Virus record (IMG/VR): IMGVR_UViG_3300036846_000650
Coordinates: 1 to 53,729 of that record
DNA: 53,729 bases
Source of the DNA: a virus
Reading direction: 5' to 3' (one strand)
Shown: positions 4,067 to 49,411 of the stretch, in pieces
Layout: every line of letters begins with the position of its first letter
How positions within the stretch are numbered: position 1 is the stretch's first letter
Translations under genes and position numbers: made by a program
The notes under the pieces: model-generated
Databases searched by the model: none
The model's input: only the letters and a program-made list of their open reading frames with translations
What the model was told of the DNA's origin: nothing

Positions 4067-4541
4067 GGAAGAACTCCCCGAAATGCCGTTGAGCGGCCTG
4101 GATATAGGCGGCGCGTGCCTCAGCGACTGTATCGAATACACCTATGAATTTGCGTTTCCTGTTTAGGTAGATCGCAGTCTGGAATTTATCCCGACACCGT
4201 TGAACACCTTTCGGAAGGTCATGATTACGGCGGCGTCGGCTGTTCTGACTGTTCTGGGCCTTAGTGGCTTCGCGCAGATTGGTCCAGCGGTTGTTAAAAT
4301 GATCACCATCGTGATGGTCAATTAAGCCGGTCGGATCACGGCCTGTCGCGATTTTCCAGATGATCCGCGACGCTTTGTAAAGGACACGGTCAAGGCGGAC
4401 TAAGACGCCAACTTTCTCGGCCGGGCAGCCCGCTACCTTTCCGGCGAATTGTCCACAACGCCAACGCAGTAAGCCGGTTTCCGGCTCATAGGCAAAACTC
4501 CGTCGCAGATAGTCCGCTTCGGGCAATGGCTTCGCGCGCAT
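4056..4541 (-). CDS. HNH homing endonuclease with AP2 DNA-binding domain
   Basis: 161 residues from ATG at 4541. The HNH core is IDHHDGDHFNNRWTNLREAT followed by QNSQN (HNH_3 type). The C-terminal AP2-like part is GVQRCRDKFQTAIYLNRKR, then IGVFDTVAEARAAYIQAA. Such enzymes nick or cut DNA and spread by homing into phage genes. It lies antisense to the late operon, directly upstream of the sheath gene, whose ribosome-binding site falls just beyond its start. The start codon is not certain: TTG or GTG codons lie a few codons upstream, and no strong Shine-Dalgarno is seen. Confidence 0.85.
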   Translation of the reverse strand: MRAKPLPEADYLRRSFAYEPETGLLRWRCGQFAGKVAGCPAEKVGVLVRLDRVLYKASRIIWKIATGRDPTGLIDHHDGDHFNNRWTNLREATKAQNSQNSRRRRNHDLPKGVQRCRDKFQTAIYLNRKRKFIGVFDTVAEARAAYIQAAQRHFGEFFRAG

Positions 4542-4570
4542 CCCGTAGTCTAACACCAAGGAGAAAAGCC

Positions 4571-7021
4571 GTGCCAGGATTGAGTGTAAGCGATGTAGTT
4601 AACGTCACCATCAACATGAGCCCGCTGGCGGTGCCACTGCGCAATTTCGGCGCGCAGCTATTCGCCGGTCCGTCGGCGGTGATCGATGTCAAGGAGCGGC
4701 TGCGGGAATATACCACGCTGGATCAGGTGGTGTCGGATTTCGGCACCGCCGCGCCGGAATATCTGGCGGCTGATTTGTTTTTCTCGCAGAGCCCGCAGCC
4801 CAGCATCTGCTACATCGGCCGGTTCGCGCAGACCGCCTCCAGCGCGGTGCTGCACGGCAGGATATTCAGCACCGCTGGCTCCGCGGCGCTGATCCGCCAG
4901 ATGCAGCAGATCACCAACGGCTCGATGCGGATCACGGTGGACGGCACGGTCCGCACCGCTTCGGCGGTGGCGGCCTACCTGAACGGCGGGGTGTTCTCGG
5001 CCGGCAATCAGGCCCCGCTGCTCACCACGCTGCAAGCGATCCTTGATGGTGCCTTCGGCATAACGATCGATGGCACGGCGCGGCAGATCAATCGCACGGC
5101 CGGGGTGATCGTCGGCGGGGCTACCGCTTCGGCCGATCAGGGGGCTCTGCTGACCAGCTTGCAGGCGATCACCGACGGCGGCTTTGCCATGACCATCGAT
5201 GGCACGTTGCGGCAGGTAGGCCCGATCGACTTCACCACCGCGGTCAATCTGGTGTCGTGCGCGGCGCTGATCGACGGCGAGCTTGGCTCCTGGGGCGACT
5301 GCAAGTGGGACGCCACCAATGGCACCTTTATCATCAGTTCGGCGACCTCGGGCGTTGCCTCGACGGTCACCTACGCCTCCGCGCCGCTCGCCGGCACCGA
5401 CATTTCGACCATCCTCCTGATGACTTCGGCCTCCGGGGCGGGTGCGCCGGTGGCGGGTGCCGCGGCCGGGATCGACTTCGCGGCGACGCAGTCGCTCGCC
5501 GACTGCGCGGCGCTGATCAACGTGGCGATGGCGGGCTGGGGTGGCTGCACTTGGGATGGGGTGATCGGCCGTTTCATCCTGACCTCGGCGACCACGGGGG
5601 CCGCTTCCACGATCACCTATGCGACCCCTCCGGGCACCGTGATCACCACCACCACCACCGCCGCGGTTGTCGCTGGGGACACAGTGATCCCGGTCGCGTC
5701 GGCTACCGGCATGGCAAACGGGATGGCGATTTCCGGCACAGGCATTCCGGCCGGCACGGTGATCAACACAATTGCCGGGCTCAATATCACGATCTCGAAT
5801 GCGACCACCGGCAGCGGCGTGGCGAACGGTGCGACGATCACGGTCACCTCCGCTGGGGCTGGCACCGACCTGTCGGCTCCACTGCAACTCACCTCGGCGA
5901 CCGGGGCGACTGCGCCAGTTGCGGGCAGCACCGGGATGAACTTCGCCGCGATCACCAACTTGAACGGCGCAGCCAGCATCATCCAGGCGGCGCTGCCCGG
6001 CGCATCGGTGGAATGGGACGGCACTCGCTTCCATATTTCCAGCCTCTCGGCCGGGCCCAACTCGACGCTGAGCTACGCGTCATCGGCGGGCACCGGGCAG
6101 GACATCTCGCTGATGACCGGCCTGTCGCAGGCGGGCGGGGCCACTCCACCGGTGAACGGGGTGAGTGCGGAGAGCCCGCTGCAAGCGGCGGCGGCGCTGC
6201 GCGCGCATCCGGAATGGTATGGGATGCAATTTGCGGTCACCACCGACATCTCGATCGATGACTACGTGGCGGTGGCGCAGTTCATCGAGGGGTGCTCGCC
6301 GTCCAGCATCTTTGGCTACACCACGATGGACACTGCGGCGCTCGATCCGACCAGCACCACCGACCTCGCGGCGACGCTGAAATCCTACACCCTGGAGCGC
6401 ACCTACGGGCAGTACAGCAGCAGTTCGCCGTATGCCAGCGCGAGCCTTGTGGCCAGGGCGTTCACCGTGGACTTCGAGGCCAACAACACCACCATCACCT
6501 TGAAGTTCAAACAGGAGCCGGGCGTCCAGGGCGAGCAGTTGACCGAGAGTCAGGCGGCGGCACTCAAGGGCAAGAACTGCAACGTGTTTGTCTACTACAG
6601 CAATGACGCTGCGATCATCCAGGAAGGGGTGATGTGCAACGGATTTTTCTTCGATGAGGTGCACGGGACGGACTGGCAAGCCAACAGGATACAGACCGAT
6701 CTGTTCAACGTGCTGTATCAGTCACCGACGAAAATTCCCCAAACAAATCCAGGCATCCACATCCTGGTGACCACGGTCACCGCGTCACTCAATCAGGGCG
6801 TGGTGAATGGGCTGATCGCACCGGGGCAGTGGAATGCGCCCGGTTTCGGCCAGTTGAAGCAGGGGCAGATACTACCGGACGGCTTCTATGTCTGGGCTCC
6901 GCTGGTGGAGAGCCAGCCGCAGGCAATCCGCGAGCAACGGATCGCACCGACCATCCAAGCCGCGATCAAGCTCGCGGGTGCGGTGCACAAGGCCAACGTC
7001 ATCGTCAACGTTAATCGCTAA
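4571..7021 (+). CDS. Contractile tail sheath protein (DUF3383-like) with inserted repeats
   Basis: 816 residues. GTG 4571 is chosen because AAGGAG lies 7 nt upstream and the protein then begins VPGLSVSDVVNVTINMSPL, as in this family; the ATG at 4526 would add an unlikely leader. The N-terminal ~90 residues (VIDVKERLREYTTLDQV, AAPEYLAADLFFSQ) and the C-terminus from about residue 530 (AALRAHPEWYG, GVMCNGFFFDEVHGTDW, ADGFY-like PDGFYVWAP) are sheath-like. Between them lie two kinds of internal repeat: IDGT.R units near residues 110-220 and three units with AALI, WDG and STITYA from about residue 220 to 530. Sheaths of this type are usually much shorter, so the insert probably decorates the outer tail surface. 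Confidence 0.85.
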   Translation: MPGLSVSDVVNVTINMSPLAVPLRNFGAQLFAGPSAVIDVKERLREYTTLDQVVSDFGTAAPEYLAADLFFSQSPQPSICYIGRFAQTASSAVLHGRIFSTAGSAALIRQMQQITNGSMRITVDGTVRTASAVAAYLNGGVFSAGNQAPLLTTLQAILDGAFGITIDGTARQINRTAGVIVGGATASADQGALLTSLQAITDGGFAMTIDGTLRQVGPIDFTTAVNLVSCAALIDGELGSWGDCKWDATNGTFIISSATSGVASTVTYASAPLAGTDISTILLMTSASGAGAPVAGAAAGIDFAATQSLADCAALINVAMAGWGGCTWDGVIGRFILTSATTGAASTITYATPPGTVITTTTTAAVVAGDTVIPVASATGMANGMAISGTGIPAGTVINTIAGLNITISNATTGSGVANGATITVTSAGAGTDLSAPLQLTSATGATAPVAGSTGMNFAAITNLNGAASIIQAALPGASVEWDGTRFHISSLSAGPNSTLSYASSAGTGQDISLMTGLSQAGGATPPVNGVSAESPLQAAAALRAHPEWYGMQFAVTTDISIDDYVAVAQFIEGCSPSSIFGYTTMDTAALDPTSTTDLAATLKSYTLERTYGQYSSSSPYASASLVARAFTVDFEANNTTITLKFKQEPGVQGEQLTESQAAALKGKNCNVFVYYSNDAAIIQEGVMCNGFFFDEVHGTDWQANRIQTDLFNVLYQSPTKIPQTNPGIHILVTTVTASLNQGVVNGLIAPGQWNAPGFGQLKQGQILPDGFYVWAPLVESQPQAIREQRIAPTIQAAIKLAGAVHKANVIVNVNR

Positions 7022-28085: not shown

Positions 28086-28468
28086 CCGCAGGCGAATTGT
28101 TTGATCAGGTGCGGCGGGATATTCCGCTGCACCATGCGACCCGGCGCTACCGCAAGGGCGGCTACAAGACCGACGCCTCAAACGATCGGATGCGCTGGGT
28201 GCTGTTCGCCGAACAGGTAAACCGATTTGACGTGACGACAACGCAGACCGGGCCGCGCAGGATGCTGGAGCGCAACACCCGGTTGATACCGAACCTCACG
28301 CCCTGCGCGGAGTGTGGCAAGCCGTTCTTGCGTGACAATCGCCGGAGCGAGATCATCAACTGCTCGATCAGGTGTGGTCACTTGCTGCGCAGCCGGCGGC
28401 TGGCTGAGAAGGAGGAGGACGATCCGATGGCCGGGGTGCTGGCGACGCTCAACCGCGGGAGGAAATGA
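28082..28468 (+). CDS. Zinc-ribbon hypothetical protein (start uncertain)
   Basis: The frame from about 28037 to 28468 is coding-like: TLTAGELFDQVRRDIPLHHATRRYRKGGY, then PCAECGKPFLRD with INCSIRCGHLLRSRR, a Cys-x2-Cys ... Cys-x3-Cys zinc site. No ATG or GTG lies in the right place. CTG 28082 overlaps the ParB stop as CTGA, and TTG 28097 is the other candidate. About 123-128 residues. Either a rare start codon is used or the protein is made by coupling from the ParB gene. Family unknown. Confidence 0.55.
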   Translation: MTAGELFDQVRRDIPLHHATRRYRKGGYKTDASNDRMRWVLFAEQVNRFDVTTTQTGPRRMLERNTRLIPNLTPCAECGKPFLRDNRRSEIINCSIRCGHLLRSRRLAEKEEDDPMAGVLATLNRGRK

Positions 28469-29514
28469 TGCCGGAGGGGCTCAGTCTCACCGAATTAGCG
28501 ACTGCGGTTACCGGCCGGATACCGCATCCGCTGGACGTGCTGGCAGCAGAAATCCGGGCGGCGCATGAGTCGGTGGTGCGGCACAGCCGGCACACCGCAG
28601 AAAGTGCCTTGGAGGCTGGAGAGAAGCTCATTATCGCAAAGCTGCATCCGGACACCCAAGGTATCAGGTGGCAGGACTGGGTCGAGCAGAAGGCGCGGGT
28701 GCCCTACCGAAATGCGCAACGCTACGCTCAACTATTCATTTCGGTGCATGGGGGTGTTGTCTTAAGGCAAGACGTTGCAGAACTTGGCATATTCGGTGCG
28801 CTGCGGCTGGATTTCGCGTTACGCGGACTTACCCCCGAACAACGGACGATGGTGCGGGATAGGATGGCACTGGGCACGCGGGTCATGGAAGCCCGCCGGC
28901 TGGTCCTGGCTGATGACAGGGTGAATGCCGAACTGCTGATGCCCAGCGGCAAATTCCGAGTGATCTATGCCGACCCGCCGTGGTCCTATGGCAACACGCA
29001 GCCGGACACTTTCGGCGAGCAACGCGACCATTATCCGGTGATGTCTCTTGCCGACATTTGCGCGCTGCCGGTACTCGACTGGGCACTAGATGACGCGGTG
29101 CTGTATCTGTGGGTGACCGCGCCCATGGCGCTCGACGTTGCGGCGGTGATCGACGCCTGGGGCTTCGAGTACAAGGCGCAGTTTATCTGGCACAAGGAAA
29201 GGCACGTCCAGGGCCACTACAATTCGGTCCGCCACGAGTTGCTGTATGTCTGCACCCGCGGTGCCTGTCAGCCCGATGTGCGCCGGCTGTTTCCCAGCGT
29301 CTACACCGAGCCGCGGGCTGACCACAGCCGCAAGCCGGAATATTTCTATTCGGTGATCGAGACGCTATACCCACGGGGCAGGCGGCTCGAATTATTCCGG
29401 CGCGGGCCGCCAAGGGACGGGTGGGAGGCGTATGGAAACGAGGTCACTGGAGCAGCGGATCGCCGAACTGGAGCAGGAGAACCAGCGGCTGCGGCAACAG
29501 GTGAGGTATCCTGA
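28465..29514 (+). CDS. MT-A70 family adenine methyltransferase
   Basis: 349 residues. The N-terminal third is a DUF3102-like helical region (HTAESALEAGEKLIIAK, QDWVEQKARVPYRNAQRY). FRVIYADPPWSYGN (near residue 165) is the DPPW catalytic motif. DDAVLYLWVTAPMALD, AQFIWHKERHVQGHYNS and SRKPEYFYSVIETLYP complete the MT-A70 fold. It would make N6-methyladenine in DNA, using SAM. Likely roles are protection from host restriction or marking of self DNA. The last 83 bp overlap the following nuclease-like gene. Confidence 0.85.
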   Translation: MMPEGLSLTELATAVTGRIPHPLDVLAAEIRAAHESVVRHSRHTAESALEAGEKLIIAKLHPDTQGIRWQDWVEQKARVPYRNAQRYAQLFISVHGGVVLRQDVAELGIFGALRLDFALRGLTPEQRTMVRDRMALGTRVMEARRLVLADDRVNAELLMPSGKFRVIYADPPWSYGNTQPDTFGEQRDHYPVMSLADICALPVLDWALDDAVLYLWVTAPMALDVAAVIDAWGFEYKAQFIWHKERHVQGHYNSVRHELLYVCTRGACQPDVRRLFPSVYTEPRADHSRKPEYFYSVIETLYPRGRRLELFRRGPPRDGWEAYGNEVTGAADRRTGAGEPAAAATGEVS

Positions 29515-37367: not shown

Positions 37368-38078
37368 ATGCGACAGCTACTGCTTACCGGCGCTGCACTG
37401 GCGGCGCTCACCATTGGAGCCGGGACGGCGCACGCGGCGCTGGTATCACTCGGACCCAGCGCGGGCACCGAAGGGCTCACCTACACGCTGGAGTCCATGG
37501 CGACCGCCAATCCGCTGGTCGAGGAATTCGCCCTCACCATCACCGGCGAGAATACCGCAGCCGACCTGGAAGGTGGCGTCAACGCGCACCGCACCGGGAT
37601 CAACGCGATTGCCTTCAACACCGTGTCGAAGAATAATCCGGCGTCGGGCACCATGTTGTCCACGACCATCAACGGCGTCACCAAGACCTCGCCGAACACC
37701 GGATTTACCTTTGTTCCCGGCGGGCTGGCGTCCTCCGGCTGCGATGGCAGCGGCGGCTTCTTCTGCTTCGATAACACGGCGATCCCGCCGATCCCGGCCT
37801 CGCCCGACATCACCGGCAAGGTGACCCTGGTCTTCAGCGCCACGCTGGACGCCGGCAGTTCTTGGGCCAACTACACGACCGCGTTCAAGATCGACTGGGT
37901 GGGCCCGGGCACCAACAACTTCAACTTGGTGTCGCTGGATATTCCGGTGAACACCGACTGCCCGGACTGTGGTCCTGGCACGCACAGCGCGCCGGAGCCG
38001 GCCTCGTTGGCCATCCTGGGCGTCGGCCTGCTTGGCCTGGGCGTCGTTACCCGGCGCAGCCGCCGGTCAGCCTCCTAA
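37368..38078 (+). CDS. Secreted PEP-CTERM protein 1
   Basis: 236 residues. Signal peptide MRQLLLTGAALAALTIGAGTAHA with a cleavage site after AHA. The mature part is beta-rich, low in charge and has a Cys pair region (SSGCDGSGGFFCFDN). The C-terminus is a PEP-CTERM sorting signal: APEPASLAILGVGLLGLGVV followed by TRRSRRSAS. In bacteria such proteins are exported by Sec and processed by an exosortase during exopolysaccharide or biofilm assembly. The phage shows no exosortase, so processing must come from the host. Translation may be controlled by the leader hairpin. Codon use matches its phage neighbours. Confidence 0.85.
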   Translation: MRQLLLTGAALAALTIGAGTAHAALVSLGPSAGTEGLTYTLESMATANPLVEEFALTITGENTAADLEGGVNAHRTGINAIAFNTVSKNNPASGTMLSTTINGVTKTSPNTGFTFVPGGLASSGCDGSGGFFCFDNTAIPPIPASPDITGKVTLVFSATLDAGSSWANYTTAFKIDWVGPGTNNFNLVSLDIPVNTDCPDCGPGTHSAPEPASLAILGVGLLGLGVVTRRSRRSAS

Positions 38079-38086
38079 CTGAGGGG

Positions 38087-38125
38087 GGCGGGCCCGGTTC
38101 GCTTGGGAGGCTTCCCGGGCCTGCC
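38087..38125. terminator. Hairpin between the two PEP-CTERM genes
   Basis: GGCGGGCCCGG (38087-38097) pairs with CCGGGCCTGCC (38115-38125), 11 bp with one G-T. No T-run follows on either strand, so it may be an mRNA stability or attenuation structure instead of a terminator. Confidence 0.4.
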
Positions 38126-38163
38126 TCCCTTGGGGACTTCCTCCCATAGGCAAAGGAATATCC

Positions 38164-38715
38164 ATGCGTAAGCTCTTACTCTCCACGGCTCTGATCGGTG
38201 GTTTTGCCGGTCTGGCCAACGCCGCCCCGATCGCCGCTGGCAGCGAACTCAACGTGATTGGCGGCGCGCAGTTCAACGCCACCACGATCACGTCCAACAC
38301 GCCGGCCGGGCTGGCTCCTGATCAGACCGGCTCGTTCGCGGCGTTCATCGCGTGCTTGTCCTGCGTGACGGTCAACGCGGCCAGCTTCACGTACTCTCCG
38401 GCGGTGCAGACCGGCCTGCTGTTCACCATCACCGAAGGGTCGTTGGTCGCTACCATCTCGGTCGATGCCGGCGGCATAGCCACACCGGGGATCAACTCGC
38501 TGGCGATCAATGCCCCCGCCACCTTGACCATGACGGGCTTCTCCGCGACGCCGGGCCAATTTGTTTGGACAATCAATCAGTTGGGGCAGGAAGTTGGCTC
38601 GTTTTCTGCGACCGCTGATGCTTCCGCGGTGCCGGAGCCGGCCAGTCTTGGTCTGCTGGGTGTCGGCCTGCTTGGTCTGGCCGGGATCACCGAACTGCGC
38701 CGTCGGCGCAGGTAG
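38164..38715 (+). CDS. Secreted PEP-CTERM protein 2
   Basis: 183 residues, ATG 38164 with AAAGGAATATCC upstream. Signal peptide MRKLLLSTALIGGFAGLANA. The mature part is Ala/Thr/Ser-rich beta sequence (VNAASFTYSPAVQTGLLFTITEG, then ATLTMTGFSATPGQFVWTINQ). C-terminus VPEPASLGLLGVGLLGLAGI then TELRRRRR, a textbook PEP-CTERM sorting signal. Only the signal peptide and sorting tail resemble protein 1; the mature regions differ. Surface-exposed or exopolysaccharide-linked location is the family expectation. Confidence 0.85.
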   Translation: MRKLLLSTALIGGFAGLANAAPIAAGSELNVIGGAQFNATTITSNTPAGLAPDQTGSFAAFIACLSCVTVNAASFTYSPAVQTGLLFTITEGSLVATISVDAGGIATPGINSLAINAPATLTMTGFSATPGQFVWTINQLGQEVGSFSATADASAVPEPASLGLLGVGLLGLAGITELRRRRR

Positions 38716-38753: not shown

Positions 38754-38885
38754 GTGGCCGTCGACTCCCTGGTGGGTCGGCGGCCGTTCGTGTCCCGAGC
38801 CGGCCAAGTGCTGCGCATCGTCGCGGTCTTCCTATTCTACCTTGTCATGCTCTTGTTGCTTGTGTGGTGGATGGCGGCCAGATGA
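38754..38885 (+). CDS. Small single-pass membrane protein (43 aa)
   Basis: GTG 38754 with a weak site. RRPFVSRAGQVLR followed by IVAVFLFYLVMLLLLVWWM as the span, ending MAAR in an ATGA overlap with the next gene. The overlap argues for translation even though the start is uncertain. Confidence 0.45.
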   Translation: MAVDSLVGRRPFVSRAGQVLRIVAVFLFYLVMLLLLVWWMAAR

Positions 38886-40717
38886 AAATCCGCATCACCG
38901 GTCGGTTCGACATCACGGTGGAGGTGCCCATGGGAAAGCCGCCAGAGCCGCCCGGCCAGGGCGGGACACCTCCGGGGCACGGCGGGACGCCTCCCGGACA
39001 GCAGCCCGAGCCGCCCGATCCCGGCATCCCGACGCCACCGGACCGACCACAGCCCATCCCACCCGAGCCACCCGACATCGAGGAGCCGCCGCCGGACATC
39101 GAGATCGAGCCGCCGCCTGTCGGGAGTATGCAGGCGCTCGTGATGCTCAGCGGCGTGAACTACGTGTTCAACGAGGCGGACGCGATCGACATCGGCTCCT
39201 ACGTGCACCCACACGGGCGCTTCACCATGGCCTGCCGGCGCGGCACCCTGCCGTCCTGCCCGCTACGGGTGGACTTCCGGCGCATCGATGGCTGGCAGTG
39301 CATCATCTTCGAGACCGGCGACCCGATGGCACCGGAGCCGCTCAATCTGCCGCCGTATGAGGTGCAGATCGTGGACGACGCCGGGGCGTTTCATCCGGTC
39401 CAGGTGCCCGACCAGTGGGCCTACAGCCGGTGGCGCTGGCAGTCCGGCAAGTGGCCGCTGGAGCTTCTCACGGTGGAGGACCTGACCACCGAAGGGCTGG
39501 TGCCCAACTACGACGCGGACATGACCGGCGGCACCGCCCATCCGCTGCCGCTGGCGACCTACGAGCCGATGGGCCTCGCCGGGCTCACCGCCAACATGCC
39601 CAACACGGGTGGCCGTTCGGATATCGGTCTATTCACGGATTGGGGTGGCGAATATCTCTGCACCCAGTCGGAGACCGCGCTGGCCTCGGTGCTGGCGCAG
39701 GCGGAGGCAGGCGGGACGATCCCGTGGATGATGCGGGACCTGGGCACCGGCGCGCCGCTCGATCTCATGAACGATTGGAAGTACGCGACAATCTATTGGG
39801 ACCCGAGCGCCAATCCCTACATTCCGAGCGCCAAGGACACCGGCATCTCGATCGACACCTCGCACCAGCCGGCGCTGGCTTATCTGCCGCTCCTGCTGAC
39901 CGGCGATCCGTATCACCTGGAGACGCTCCAATGTCAGGCGAATTTCGCCTTCCTGGAGACGCCGCGGAATTGGAATGAGGGTCAGGTCTGGCAATGCCCG
40001 GGAACTGGCCAGACTCGCAGTATGGCGTGGAACATCAGGACAATAGGGTCCGCGCTTGCGATGACACCGGAGGAGGTGCCGTCCTGGCTGTTGCCCAAAG
40101 CGGTGCTGCACCAGATGCTGGCGCAGTGCGTCAAGGGCACCAATGCCATCATGCAGGAAGGCGGGAACAATCGGACGGTCCTGCACGCGATCGACGTGGG
40201 CCTGCCGGGCGGCGACGAAGGTGCACCGGGCGGCTATTACCCCTCCAATTGCTACAGCCGTTGCTGGCAGACCAGTTTTTTCGCGCAAGCGGTCGGATGG
40301 CTCGCGCAGCTTCACCGGGAATTGGCACCGTTGGCCGGCTATATCGCGAAAAACATGATCGCGCGCGCCGACGGGCTGCACTGGGACAGCACCTATCCGG
40401 CTCCCTACGCCCTGCTGTTGCGGCCGGCCTACGAGGCTGATTGGTTCGATAGCTGGCAGGTGTGCTGGGAGTCCAACGCGGCCATCCTGGGCGTGCCTGC
40501 GGCCCCGCTGTCCAATCAGCTTAAGGCGGTGGGGGACTACGAAGGCGGCTTCTACGGCGGCCTCGCAGCCCTAGCACAGGGGCACGCCGCTGGGGTGTCG
40601 GATATCCCCGCCGAGATCAACGCGGCGCTCGATCATTACAGCGGGCAGGTGGCTGCGCTACTGGCCACCGGCGGGAATAATTATCTCACCTGGAATAACG
40701 CCATCGCGCTGCCCTAG
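38882..40717 (+). CDS. Large toroid-like protein with Pro-rich N-terminus, glycan-active candidate
   Basis: 611 residues from ATG 38882 (ATGA overlap). Residues ~1-15 form a short beta start, and ~17-75 are Pro/Gly-rich (PPGQGGTPPGHGGTPPG). The rest has QWAYSRWRWQSGKWPLELL, MTGGTAHPLPLATYEPMGLAGLT, GRSDIGLFTDWGGEYLCTQ, SIDTSHQPALAYLPLLLTGDPYHLETLQ and SMAWNIRTIGSALAMTPEE. The helix-rich layout with conserved Trp/His/Tyr recalls (alpha/alpha)6-toroid polysaccharide lyases and hydrolases. No lyase catalytic set could be confirmed. No signal peptide. Next to the PEP-CTERM genes, a role on host surface glycan is inferred. Confidence 0.6.
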   Translation: MKIRITGRFDITVEVPMGKPPEPPGQGGTPPGHGGTPPGQQPEPPDPGIPTPPDRPQPIPPEPPDIEEPPPDIEIEPPPVGSMQALVMLSGVNYVFNEADAIDIGSYVHPHGRFTMACRRGTLPSCPLRVDFRRIDGWQCIIFETGDPMAPEPLNLPPYEVQIVDDAGAFHPVQVPDQWAYSRWRWQSGKWPLELLTVEDLTTEGLVPNYDADMTGGTAHPLPLATYEPMGLAGLTANMPNTGGRSDIGLFTDWGGEYLCTQSETALASVLAQAEAGGTIPWMMRDLGTGAPLDLMNDWKYATIYWDPSANPYIPSAKDTGISIDTSHQPALAYLPLLLTGDPYHLETLQCQANFAFLETPRNWNEGQVWQCPGTGQTRSMAWNIRTIGSALAMTPEEVPSWLLPKAVLHQMLAQCVKGTNAIMQEGGNNRTVLHAIDVGLPGGDEGAPGGYYPSNCYSRCWQTSFFAQAVGWLAQLHRELAPLAGYIAKNMIARADGLHWDSTYPAPYALLLRPAYEADWFDSWQVCWESNAAILGVPAAPLSNQLKAVGDYEGGFYGGLAALAQGHAAGVSDIPAEINAALDHYSGQVAALLATGGNNYLTWNNAIALP

Positions 40718-47297: not shown

Positions 47298-47825
47298 TTA
47301 GCCGGTCGCTGGCATGGCCGGCATCTCCGGGTAGGCCGCGAGTGTCGGCCGCCCCTTCCTGCGGTGGCGTTGGCGCTCCACGTAAGTCGGGCTCTTGTCG
47401 TCCCATGAGTCGCGGACCGCCTCGTTCAGTCCCTTGTGGGCTGCCTTCGGCATCCGGTGGTCCCGGTAGCCCTGCTTGATCACCCGCAGGTAATAGTCGC
47501 TGGGCGGCATGATCCCGGTGGAGTTCATGACGTAGATCAGCATCTCGGTTTCGCCCATCGGGGTGCGCTTGATCTGGATGTATTCCTTGCGATACAGCCC
47601 GGAGCCGATCCCCTCATAGATGTCCAGCGCCACCTCGCAGGTTGGCGTGATCCGCCACACCCCGCCGTAGCAGATTGCGCCGGGCTCCTGGATGACATCG
47701 GCCACGCCGCGGAAGACCAGCCGCCAGTTGGCCAGCCGCATCCGCCCGAGCGGCTCCGCGTCCGGGCAGCGCTTCGCCATCTGTTCGACATTCAGGTTGC
47801 TGCCGTAGGCAAACATCAGCGCCAT
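47298..47825 (-). CDS. Gamma-glutamylcyclotransferase-like protein (AIG2/GGCT fold)
   Basis: 175 residues from ATG 47825 (TGATG junction). MALMFAYGSNLNVEQMAKRCPDA holds the YGSN substrate loop, and VALDIYEGIGSGLYRKEYIQI holds the catalytic Glu and the Tyr-x-Arg strand. The family releases 5-oxoproline from gamma-glutamyl amines or peptides. It is co-transcribed with the XRE regulator and lies close to the amidoligase, suggesting a pathway that makes and breaks gamma-glutamyl bonds. Confidence 0.85.
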   Translation of the reverse strand: MALMFAYGSNLNVEQMAKRCPDAEPLGRMRLANWRLVFRGVADVIQEPGAICYGGVWRITPTCEVALDIYEGIGSGLYRKEYIQIKRTPMGETEMLIYVMNSTGIMPPSDYYLRVIKQGYRDHRMPKAAHKGLNEAVRDSWDDKSPTYVERQRHRRKGRPTLAAYPEMPAMPATG

Positions 47826-48265
47826 CACACGACTCCTTCATTGCCGTAGGCGGTCATGCCCAGCGCCAGTGCGGCGCACGCCAGTCCGATGTAGTGGGGA
47901 ATACGCTGGCCTGTCTCCCAGCCTGCCAGGGAGTTTCTGGAGCAGCCCAGCATCTTGGCAGCCTCAGCCTGCGAGTAGCCCATCCGTTCCCGCCACACGA
48001 TCAGCGTAGGCCCGTCCAGGGCCGCGTTGGGCCGGGTCGGGCTTGGCTTCTCAGGGGGCGTGATGGCCACCTCGCCGGGGCTGTCGTTGTCCAGATCGAT
48101 CGCGATGTGACGGAAGGCGCGCACTCCGTGGCGGGAAACTTCCGCCCGCTCAGCAAAGCCAAGGGTGCGGAAGATCGCGCAAAGCTGGGCCTCGTTCATG
48201 CCGGTGTGCCATGCCATGCGGCCAAGATCGGCCGCGGCTTCTGTGGTGAGGGTTTGTGTATTCAT
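47825..48265 (-). CDS. XRE-family regulator with N-terminal helical domain
   Basis: 146 residues, AAGGA upstream of ATG 48265. Residues ~85-135 (PTLIVWRERMGYSQAEAAKMLGCSRNSLAGWETGQRIP) are an HTH_3 domain. The N-terminal part (AADLGRMAWHTGMNEAQLCAIFRTLGF) is helical and acidic further on. It could repress the shared minus promoters; unlike CI repressors it is embedded between enzyme genes. Confidence 0.75.
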   Translation of the reverse strand: MNTQTLTTEAAADLGRMAWHTGMNEAQLCAIFRTLGFAERAEVSRHGVRAFRHIAIDLDNDSPGEVAITPPEKPSPTRPNAALDGPTLIVWRERMGYSQAEAAKMLGCSRNSLAGWETGQRIPHYIGLACAALALGMTAYGNEGVV

Positions 48266-48293: not shown

Positions 48294-48322
48294 TATATGC
48301 GCTGATGCCTGCCCTAATTCAA
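48294..48322 (-). promoter_or_regulatory. Candidate promoter TTGAAT-N17-CATATA for the XRE/GGCT unit
   Basis: Overlaps the 3' end of the amidoligase gene. Resembles TTGACT-N17-CATATT upstream of that gene. Confidence 0.35.
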
Positions 48323-49344
48323 GCAGCCATCGCCATTGAGCTAGAAAGATGCGCCGTCCGGGCCGTGAAGAAGGCCCGTTCGGCATCGTCAAGGCCGAGC
48401 TTGCCAAACAGCCCTTCGAGGCTGGCTGGAGCTTCGGTGGAGGCAGCCGCGGCCTGGGCGAAGTACCTCACGACGCGGCCGGTCCGCTGGGTGGTGTAGG
48501 CCAGCCCGCACTCGCGAGCCCGCTGCGGCAGGGAGATCGACGGCCAGCCGGTGGCTGCGCACGCCTCCTCGCGGGTCACGCCCTCAGTGCGGAGCATCAG
48601 TTGCCCGACAAGGTGGCCCTTGCTGCCCAGGCGGGCGCGGTTGATTGCTCCGCCGCCGGTAGCGATGCCGTTGCCGGACTTGGCTGCCCATACCAGCTTG
48701 AGGCAGAGCAGTATCCAGTTGCGCACCTTGGCGTTGTCCAGCGTGCCCTGATGCTGGCGGAATTCAACGGTCTGGTGGGCGCGGTAGGCACAGAGGTTGA
48801 GCTTGGTATAGCGTGCCGTGTGGCCTGGGGGCGTCAGTGCCCGGATGAGCCCCTCCACGCTGTCCGTCCGATCGATGGTGCGGAAGGGGACGTTGGTCAC
48901 CGAGCGGCAGTAGGACGCAGCGCTGGCGCGCCGTGACGCCGCCATGAAGCGGTCGATCACCGGCTCGAAGTGCGCGTAGAGCTTCAGCAGGTTGCGGAAA
49001 AACGCTATGTTGCCGTTGCCGTGGCCGACGCCGACATGGACGTGGGTCCCGCACAGCTTGGACACCGTGCAGCCCATGTCATTGAGGAGCGCCAGCACCG
49101 TGGCGACCGTCTCCAGGCCGGCCTCGCCTTGCAGGACGGGAGAGACGAATTCCGCCCCGCGGGCGTAATCGTTGAGCGAGCCGTCAGTGACGATCTTCCA
49201 CCATGTGCGGGTTTGGTGGTTGTAGCTCTCGGGCCGGCAGTCGATGCCCTGATTGGTGAGCGCCATCGCCGCCGCGCCATGGGAAAGGCCGACGGGGAGG
49301 TAGACTTCAAACTCCACGCCGAAGGTTTGGTCGAGGTAGGCCAT
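48319..49344 (-). CDS. Amidoligase (COOH-NH2 ligase, GCS-like fold)
   Basis: 341 residues from ATG 49344, with GGAG 9 nt upstream; ATG 49359 is possible. QTFGVEFEVYLP has the family Glu-x-Glu motif; WWKIVTDGSLNDY and RGAEFVSPVLQGEAGLETV, then KLCGTHVHVGVGHGN, and QTVEFRQHQGTLDNAKVRNWILL are the conserved blocks of the amidoligase_2 family. These ATP-dependent ligases join a carboxylate to an amine. The C-terminal ~100 residues are a helical extension. Substrate unknown. Confidence 0.85.
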   Translation of the reverse strand: MAYLDQTFGVEFEVYLPVGLSHGAAAMALTNQGIDCRPESYNHQTRTWWKIVTDGSLNDYARGAEFVSPVLQGEAGLETVATVLALLNDMGCTVSKLCGTHVHVGVGHGNGNIAFFRNLLKLYAHFEPVIDRFMAASRRASAASYCRSVTNVPFRTIDRTDSVEGLIRALTPPGHTARYTKLNLCAYRAHQTVEFRQHQGTLDNAKVRNWILLCLKLVWAAKSGNGIATGGGAINRARLGSKGHLVGQLMLRTEGVTREEACAATGWPSISLPQRARECGLAYTTQRTGRVVRYFAQAAAASTEAPASLEGLFGKLGLDDAERAFFTARTAHLSSSMAMAA

Positions 49345-49370
49345 CTGTCGAAGCTCCATGTGGTGGATCA

Positions 49371-49411
49371 GTGTGCGGCACAAATATGCGCAATCACCAC
49401 GGGATAGTCAA
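49371..49411 (-). promoter_or_regulatory. Promoter TTGACT-N17-CATATT, 6 nt, GCACAC (amidoligase)
   Basis: -35 at 49406-49411, -10 at 49383-49388, GCACACTG directly after 6 nt. Best example of the GCACAC class. Confidence 0.6.

Follow-up and report, generated by a model that had tools for sequence, protein, structure and literature searches.

A recurrent phage locus for PEP-CTERM proteins with exchangeable bodies that may alter the surface of infected cells

PEP-CTERM proteins are exported, and exosortase is thought to process them so that they reach the outer surface or the exopolysaccharide (PMC1569441). One cultured PEP-CTERM protein, PepA, attaches exopolysaccharide to cells (PMC9850573). 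The PEP-CTERM paper of Haft et al. (2006) mentions no phages (PMC1569441). Here we describe two adjacent genes, P1 and P2, that encode predicted PEP-CTERM proteins in IMG/VR virus record IMGVR_UViG_3300036846_000650, whose whole length of 53,729 bases is referred to as the window and carries genes for the terminase large subunit, portal, tail sheath, primase/helicase and RecT. P1 and P2 resemble the described proteins of exosortase (EpsH, XrtA) systems in having a predicted signal peptide, a PEP motif, a transmembrane span, a basic end and orphan bodies (PMC1569441). In contrast to the genes in that study, which mostly form single-gene operons and often have a sigma-54 site, the phage genes stand in tandem pairs or in phage gene blocks; no match to a sigma-54-type upstream site, which is common among proteobacterial PEP-CTERM genes and not obligatory in the family, was found near 37.3 kb with up to two mismatches allowed. 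The pair belongs to a locus that recurs in unrelated phages, in which different bodies are joined to a retained PEP-CTERM tail, and phages probably use this locus of swappable bodies to change the surface of the infected cell.

The two PEP-CTERM genes of the window

The features of the pair, hereafter the cassette, and of the gene that follows it are listed below (aa, amino acids).

37368-38078, plus strand: P1, PEP-CTERM protein, ATG start, 236 aa, of a largely phage-borne family
37368-37436, plus strand: predicted Sec signal peptide of P1, residues 1-23, AHA before A; A21, A23 and A24 invariant in the alignment
37989-38075, plus strand: PEP-CTERM tail of P1, with PEPAS, hydrophobic span and Arg-rich end; modelled helix 211-232
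38152-38157, plus strand: likely ribosome-binding site of P2, AAAGGA, read from the sequence
38164-38715, plus strand: P2, PEP-CTERM protein, ATG start, 183 aa, body unrelated to P1
38164-38223, plus strand: predicted Sec signal peptide of P2, residues 1-20, ANA before A, read from the sequence
38629-38712, plus strand: PEP-CTERM tail of P2, VPEPASLG ... RRRRR
38864-40717, plus strand: 617-aa protein with a Pro-rich N-terminus, adjoining the cassette here and in contig G012 (43-45% identity)

P1 starts with MRQLLLTGAALAALTIGAGTAHA before A and ends in the tail APEPASLAILGVGLLGLGVVTRRSRRSAS, and P2 starts with MRKLLLSTALIGGFAGLANA before A and ends in the tail VPEPASLGLLGVGLLGLAGITELRRRRR; both signal peptides were called by eye from their n, h and c regions and AxA sites. 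A preliminary description of this DNA had proposed that both genes encode PEP-CTERM proteins, and the hidden Markov model check bore this out. With TIGR02595 (cut-off 16), P1 scored 18.9 bits and P2 20.3 bits, and with Pfam PF07589 (cut-off 20.7), P1 scored 24.3 bits and P2 was borderline (18.8 bits in the protein scan and 21.4 in the in-frame genome search). Neither model matched any of 14 control genomes. Predicted sorting of P1 and P2 to the surface is well supported. The bodies belong to no recognised family, because matches to the named subfamily models EDSAP-1, THxN, PepA and FxDxF were all far below cut-off for P1 and P2, and several were confined to the tail. Similarity between the two bodies was undetectable, in keeping with the difference in the mature regions that the preliminary description had noted, and a recent tandem duplication was rejected because the bodies are unrelated.

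Codon composition had been suggested as a check for misassembly. The GC content at third codon positions (GC3) of both genes matches that of the phage (z 0.17 and -0.89), and contig G012 (L015) holds, side by side, relatives of P2 (78%), of P1 (54%) and of the 617-aa gene that follows them. Misassembly is therefore unlikely, the possibility of a chimeric contig was rejected on both grounds, and P1 and P2 are native phage genes. The 617-aa protein, which has distant similarity to EBPR siphovirus 1 gp39, is possibly a module partner of the cassette. No RNA families or tRNA were found in the window.

Recurrence of the locus and exchange of bodies

The preliminary description spoke of two surface proteins of one phage, which holds in that the PEP-CTERM proteins are encoded by a real phage and understates the matter in that the locus recurs far beyond the window. 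P1, followed by alignments built from its relatives, served as the search query, and the P1 family turned up in no fewer than 13 distinct viral contigs of IMG/VR. The patterns used in these searches, such as TGINAIAF, KIDWVG and CFDN, lie in the body and none lies in the tail, and TIGR02595 matches all P1-family records tested. Exactly two PEP-CTERM genes are present in most of the longer records; G010 and G013 have a single one each, and the short G017 has three. Outside G010 and G013, P1 almost invariably adjoins a second PEP-CTERM gene. Among 50,697 isolate phage records there were no relatives of P1 or of the two main partner families described below, which places the locus outside what is known from model phages; a search of the isolate phages with the bare tail peptide also gave no match, though a low-complexity filter may have hidden some.

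The contigs that carry P1 are mostly barely related by gene content. For instance, G008 and G009 have only the P1 gene in common with the window, structural genes are common to the window and G006, G007, G012, G013 and G014, and the portal families differ (phrog_146 in the window and G011, phrog_156 in G010). The surroundings of the cassette vary as well: in G008 it is preceded by a GH25 endolysin gene and followed by genes for virion structure, in G013 it sits directly between the terminase (TerL) and portal genes along with a single small Pro-rich gene, and in both the window and G012 it stands beside the same gene for a 617/701-aa protein. In G005, G015 and G016 it adjoins a Pro-rich gene and a right-handed beta-helix gene (PF13229; L083:9439-10575, L074:9365-10360 and L070:16178-17281); the beta-helix proteins have a shared C-terminal domain and possibly act on polysaccharide. 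Of 84 distinct loci, 14 have a gene near the PEP-CTERM genes, usually immediately upstream, for a protein with Pro-rich repeats (THPIAPGG / NELPG); several of these proteins end in WVVAGIPGYGWRYVCVDPSL, and they have no PHROG match (L005:9099-9695, L016:9586-9990 and L140:5270-6001, among others).

The neighbours of P1 fall mostly into three families, namely S (alignment A5), I (alignment A6) and A, made up of P2 and the 78% identical protein of G012. With near-copies included, about 35 viral loci were found for family S and at least 81 for family I. Several family-I genes are part of the structural operon, with genes for a head maturation protease (phrog_530) and a major capsid protein (phrog_264) ahead of them and neck/connector genes (phrog_302 and phrog_222) behind. 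When other paired or neighbouring genes are counted, at least eight unrelated bodies carry a PEP-CTERM tail. A tail in which an EP motif precedes a hydrophobic span and a basic end was present in 128 of the 129 complete members of three families, those of P1, S and I (132 members, less three cut by contig ends); ten of the 128 have a degenerate PEP motif and were assessed by eye. The search for family S used a tail pattern and is therefore biased. For family I and P1 the search patterns lay in the body, and the tail is present in each of the 81 family-I members found in this way.

Since the tail is the sole feature common to the unrelated bodies, it might itself be the active part, with a flood of substrate occupying the exosortase and stopping the maturation of host PEP-CTERM receptors or exopolysaccharide-binding proteins, and with the bodies as passengers. 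However, the ratio of nonsynonymous to synonymous substitution rates (dN/dS) of P1 and P2 pairs was 0.05-0.31 (0.22 for the P2 pair), which indicates that the bodies are under purifying selection, and a passenger body would decay. Furthermore, the P1 body is kept across unrelated phages, has near-invariant residues and was modelled as a folded beta-sandwich. We therefore consider such competition for the exosortase quite improbable.

Comparison of sibling phages indicated that bodies are exchanged while the tail is kept. Between G008 and G009, most genes are 98-100% identical and P1 is 99% identical, whereas the partner PEP-CTERM gene is 64% identical, and two genes that were labelled tail-fibre-like by eye are at 68% and 81%. 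Likewise, the flanking DNA of G007 (L091) and L086 is 97-99% identical over most stretches, with the first PEP-CTERM gene at 60% and the second having an unrelated replacement body with the tail retained. In five of about 11 sibling groups, the identity of the PEP-CTERM gene was 43-64%, the lowest or close to the lowest among the genes within 4 kb, with flanking genes typically at 83-99%. P1 itself is 97% identical between G006 and G007, with a proportion of synonymous differences (pS) of 0.09, compared with about 0.6-1.0 for other genes, and its GC3 in G007 is 0.70 against a phage mean of 0.46. The low pS and the outlying GC3 point to recent horizontal transfer of P1.

P1 relatives were also found in two bacterial genomes (G846 and G884) of the same order as a Rhodospirillales (alphaproteobacterial) metagenome-assembled genome (MAG). 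Earlier scans of genome contigs and class samples gave no P1 relatives, and a second genome scan matched tails only; the denser search of one order then gave these two genomes, and the idea of a virus-only family was rejected. The bacterial proteins are 34-53% identical to the phage P1 proteins, and in the tree they form one clade adjoining the G010 phage copy (support 96/92). Their neighbourhoods contain transposases, plasmid-type partition genes and a TrwC relaxase gene, and no phage structural genes were recognised around them. One genome has three P1-family copies and the other has two (L215, L216, L217, L218 and L219), most of them located close to copies of the same transposase genes; it is possible that insertion sequence (IS) elements move these surface-protein genes. 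The bacterial copies in IS- and relaxase-containing regions, and the fact that the phages here are all metagenomic contigs, could suggest that the phage genes are transduced or misbinned host genes with no phage role. This explanation is highly improbable, in view of the presence of the family in many phages, inside structural gene blocks and under purifying selection, and of a tree in which the phage copies lie on one side of the bacterial copies.

Lifestyle, exosortase and possible function

Neither tyrosine nor serine recombinase genes were found in 14 phage records, several of which are fragments. The phages with the cassette are probably virulent, as judged from gene content, and a role as a temperate conversion gene is disfavoured, with the reservation that the contigs may be incomplete. 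The same 14 records contained no exosortase, and a phage-encoded exosortase was rejected on this basis. The identification of P1 and P2 as surface proteins of the exosortase type is supported, and processing by the host exosortase, which the preliminary description had supposed, is presumed.

The course of events that we infer, from export through exosortase processing to surface display, and its timing, would be as follows. A probably virulent phage would make P1 and P2 during infection, and the Sec signal peptides would carry them across the inner membrane, where the PEP-CTERM tail would retain them until processing by the host exosortase releases them to the cell's outer surface or into the layer of exopolysaccharide. 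At that site, a surface polysaccharide or a receptor may be bound or covered by the beta-rich bodies, and uptake of related phages by the infected cell and by its debris would cease, resulting in superinfection exclusion and in progeny being spared re-adsorption. The body would be swapped between phages at a fixed locus and the sorting tail retained, because, as we propose, the target varies across host strains and competing phages. That P1 and P2 are displayed in this way and alter the cell surface against superinfection or re-adsorption is our favoured reading, to which we give somewhat less than an even chance. We are slightly more reserved about its generalisation, in which the locus would be a recombining 'surface slot', lying in late blocks in several phages, where many unrelated bodies on a PEP-CTERM tail are displayed by the host, are exchanged like tail-fibre alleles and control re-adsorption or superinfection. 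The decoy or masking role conjectured in the preliminary description, here masking of a receptor or exopolysaccharide, is the direction in which the data lean, through body exchange at a fixed locus with the tail kept, the tail-fibre co-divergence in one pair and the absence of an integrase. Neither the change in biofilm that it also suggested nor lysogenic conversion found support in the data.

Several observations weigh against the favoured reading. The co-divergence with tail-fibre-like genes comes from a single sibling pair and a label given by eye, and in the other sibling groups, about half, the PEP-CTERM gene is about as conserved as its neighbours. Several of the genes lie in late blocks, whereas exclusion proteins such as Llp are early, and an absent integrase in incomplete contigs is no proof of a virulent lifestyle. 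In addition, a host was identified for neither the window nor any related contig. The search of host candidates for exosortase, which had been proposed as a check, covered 60 relatives of the Rhodospirillales anchor MAG, of which only 17 had EpsH above cut-off, and the readable half of G884, which contained 12 PEP-CTERM genes and no EpsH. Finally, P1 was modelled as a beta-sandwich with a single helix at its C-terminal end that spans the PEP-CTERM tail (predicted local distance difference test, pLDDT, 64; predicted template modelling score, pTM, 0.62), and the fold search with this model gave no match at E <= 0.001; the weak, non-significant matches included the beta-sandwiches of carbohydrate-binding modules and collagen-binding adhesin domains. 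The model of P2 was uninformative (pLDDT 41).

Alternatively, the proteins could alter the exopolysaccharide layer or floc so that progeny leave more easily or cells become attached to fresh hosts, instead of excluding other phages. PepA turns soluble exopolysaccharide into a cell-bound form and causes flocs (PMC9850573), a beta-helix gene adjoins the cassette in three phages, and the P1 fold has a weak similarity to carbohydrate-binding modules. However, that similarity is not significant, and such an alteration alone leaves the exchange of bodies between sibling phages unexplained; we regard it as unlikely. A protein left unprocessed would remain in the inner membrane, and one gene pair comes after a GH25 endolysin gene and a holin-sized gene. 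P1 and P2 might be inhibitors anchored in the inner membrane that act in the periplasm, against the entry of DNA or in the control of lysis, with the PEP motif unprocessed and the helix as a plain anchor. In contrast to what a plain anchor needs, the EP motif is found at a fixed distance before the helix in essentially all members, and a lysis role is not general because the cassette lies variously in the lysis block, between terminase and portal or between capsid and neck genes. This explanation seems rather unlikely to us.

Further genes of the window were noted apart from the cassette. An Amidoligase_2 gene (PF12224) and a gamma-glutamylcyclotransferase-like AIG2 gene (PF06094/PF13772) lie close together on the minus strand (47298-47828 and 48319-49383), and relatives of both are present in G006 and G007. 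The tail sheath (4526-7021, 831 aa) is matched by the phrog_205 profile (455 positions) in three stretches, and its residues from about 130 to 460 look like repeated inserted segments that are missing from most relatives. An MT-A70 family adenine methyltransferase gene (PF05063) is located at 28465-29514.

Comparison with known systems

By its logic, the predicted action of P1 and P2 may be likened to that of T5 Llp, an exported envelope protein of a lytic phage that stops re-adsorption and superinfection (PMC9586334). Llp is a lipoprotein made early, whereas P1 and P2, the function of which is predicted, have a PEP-CTERM anchor and larger bodies, are often paired and are exchanged. The PepA flocculation proteins (NF033554; PMC9850573) have the same sorting tail, but P1 and P2 score 20-26 bits against a cut-off of 80 and are not members of that family. 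The sole earlier mention that we found of a putative exosortase-interaction domain in viruses concerns TIGR03118 proteins that were transferred into hot-spring viruses (PMC11003980), in one sentence on a different protein family that discusses neither locus nor function. A full-text search of open-licence papers for PEP-CTERM or exosortase together with phage did not uncover any account of a phage locus of this kind. Both PEP-CTERM proteins and proteins by which phages modify surfaces were already known, and what appears to be new is a recombining phage locus of exosortase-sorted proteins. If the favoured reading is true, the host exosortase pathway, so far a matter of the exopolysaccharide and floc biology of bacteria, would be used by phages to redecorate the infected cell, and a group of environmental PEP-CTERM proteins would become testable via phages. 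Exchange of bodies at one locus would then be tied to competition between phages, and the locus would constitute a Gram-negative counterpart to phage surface-anchored proteins.
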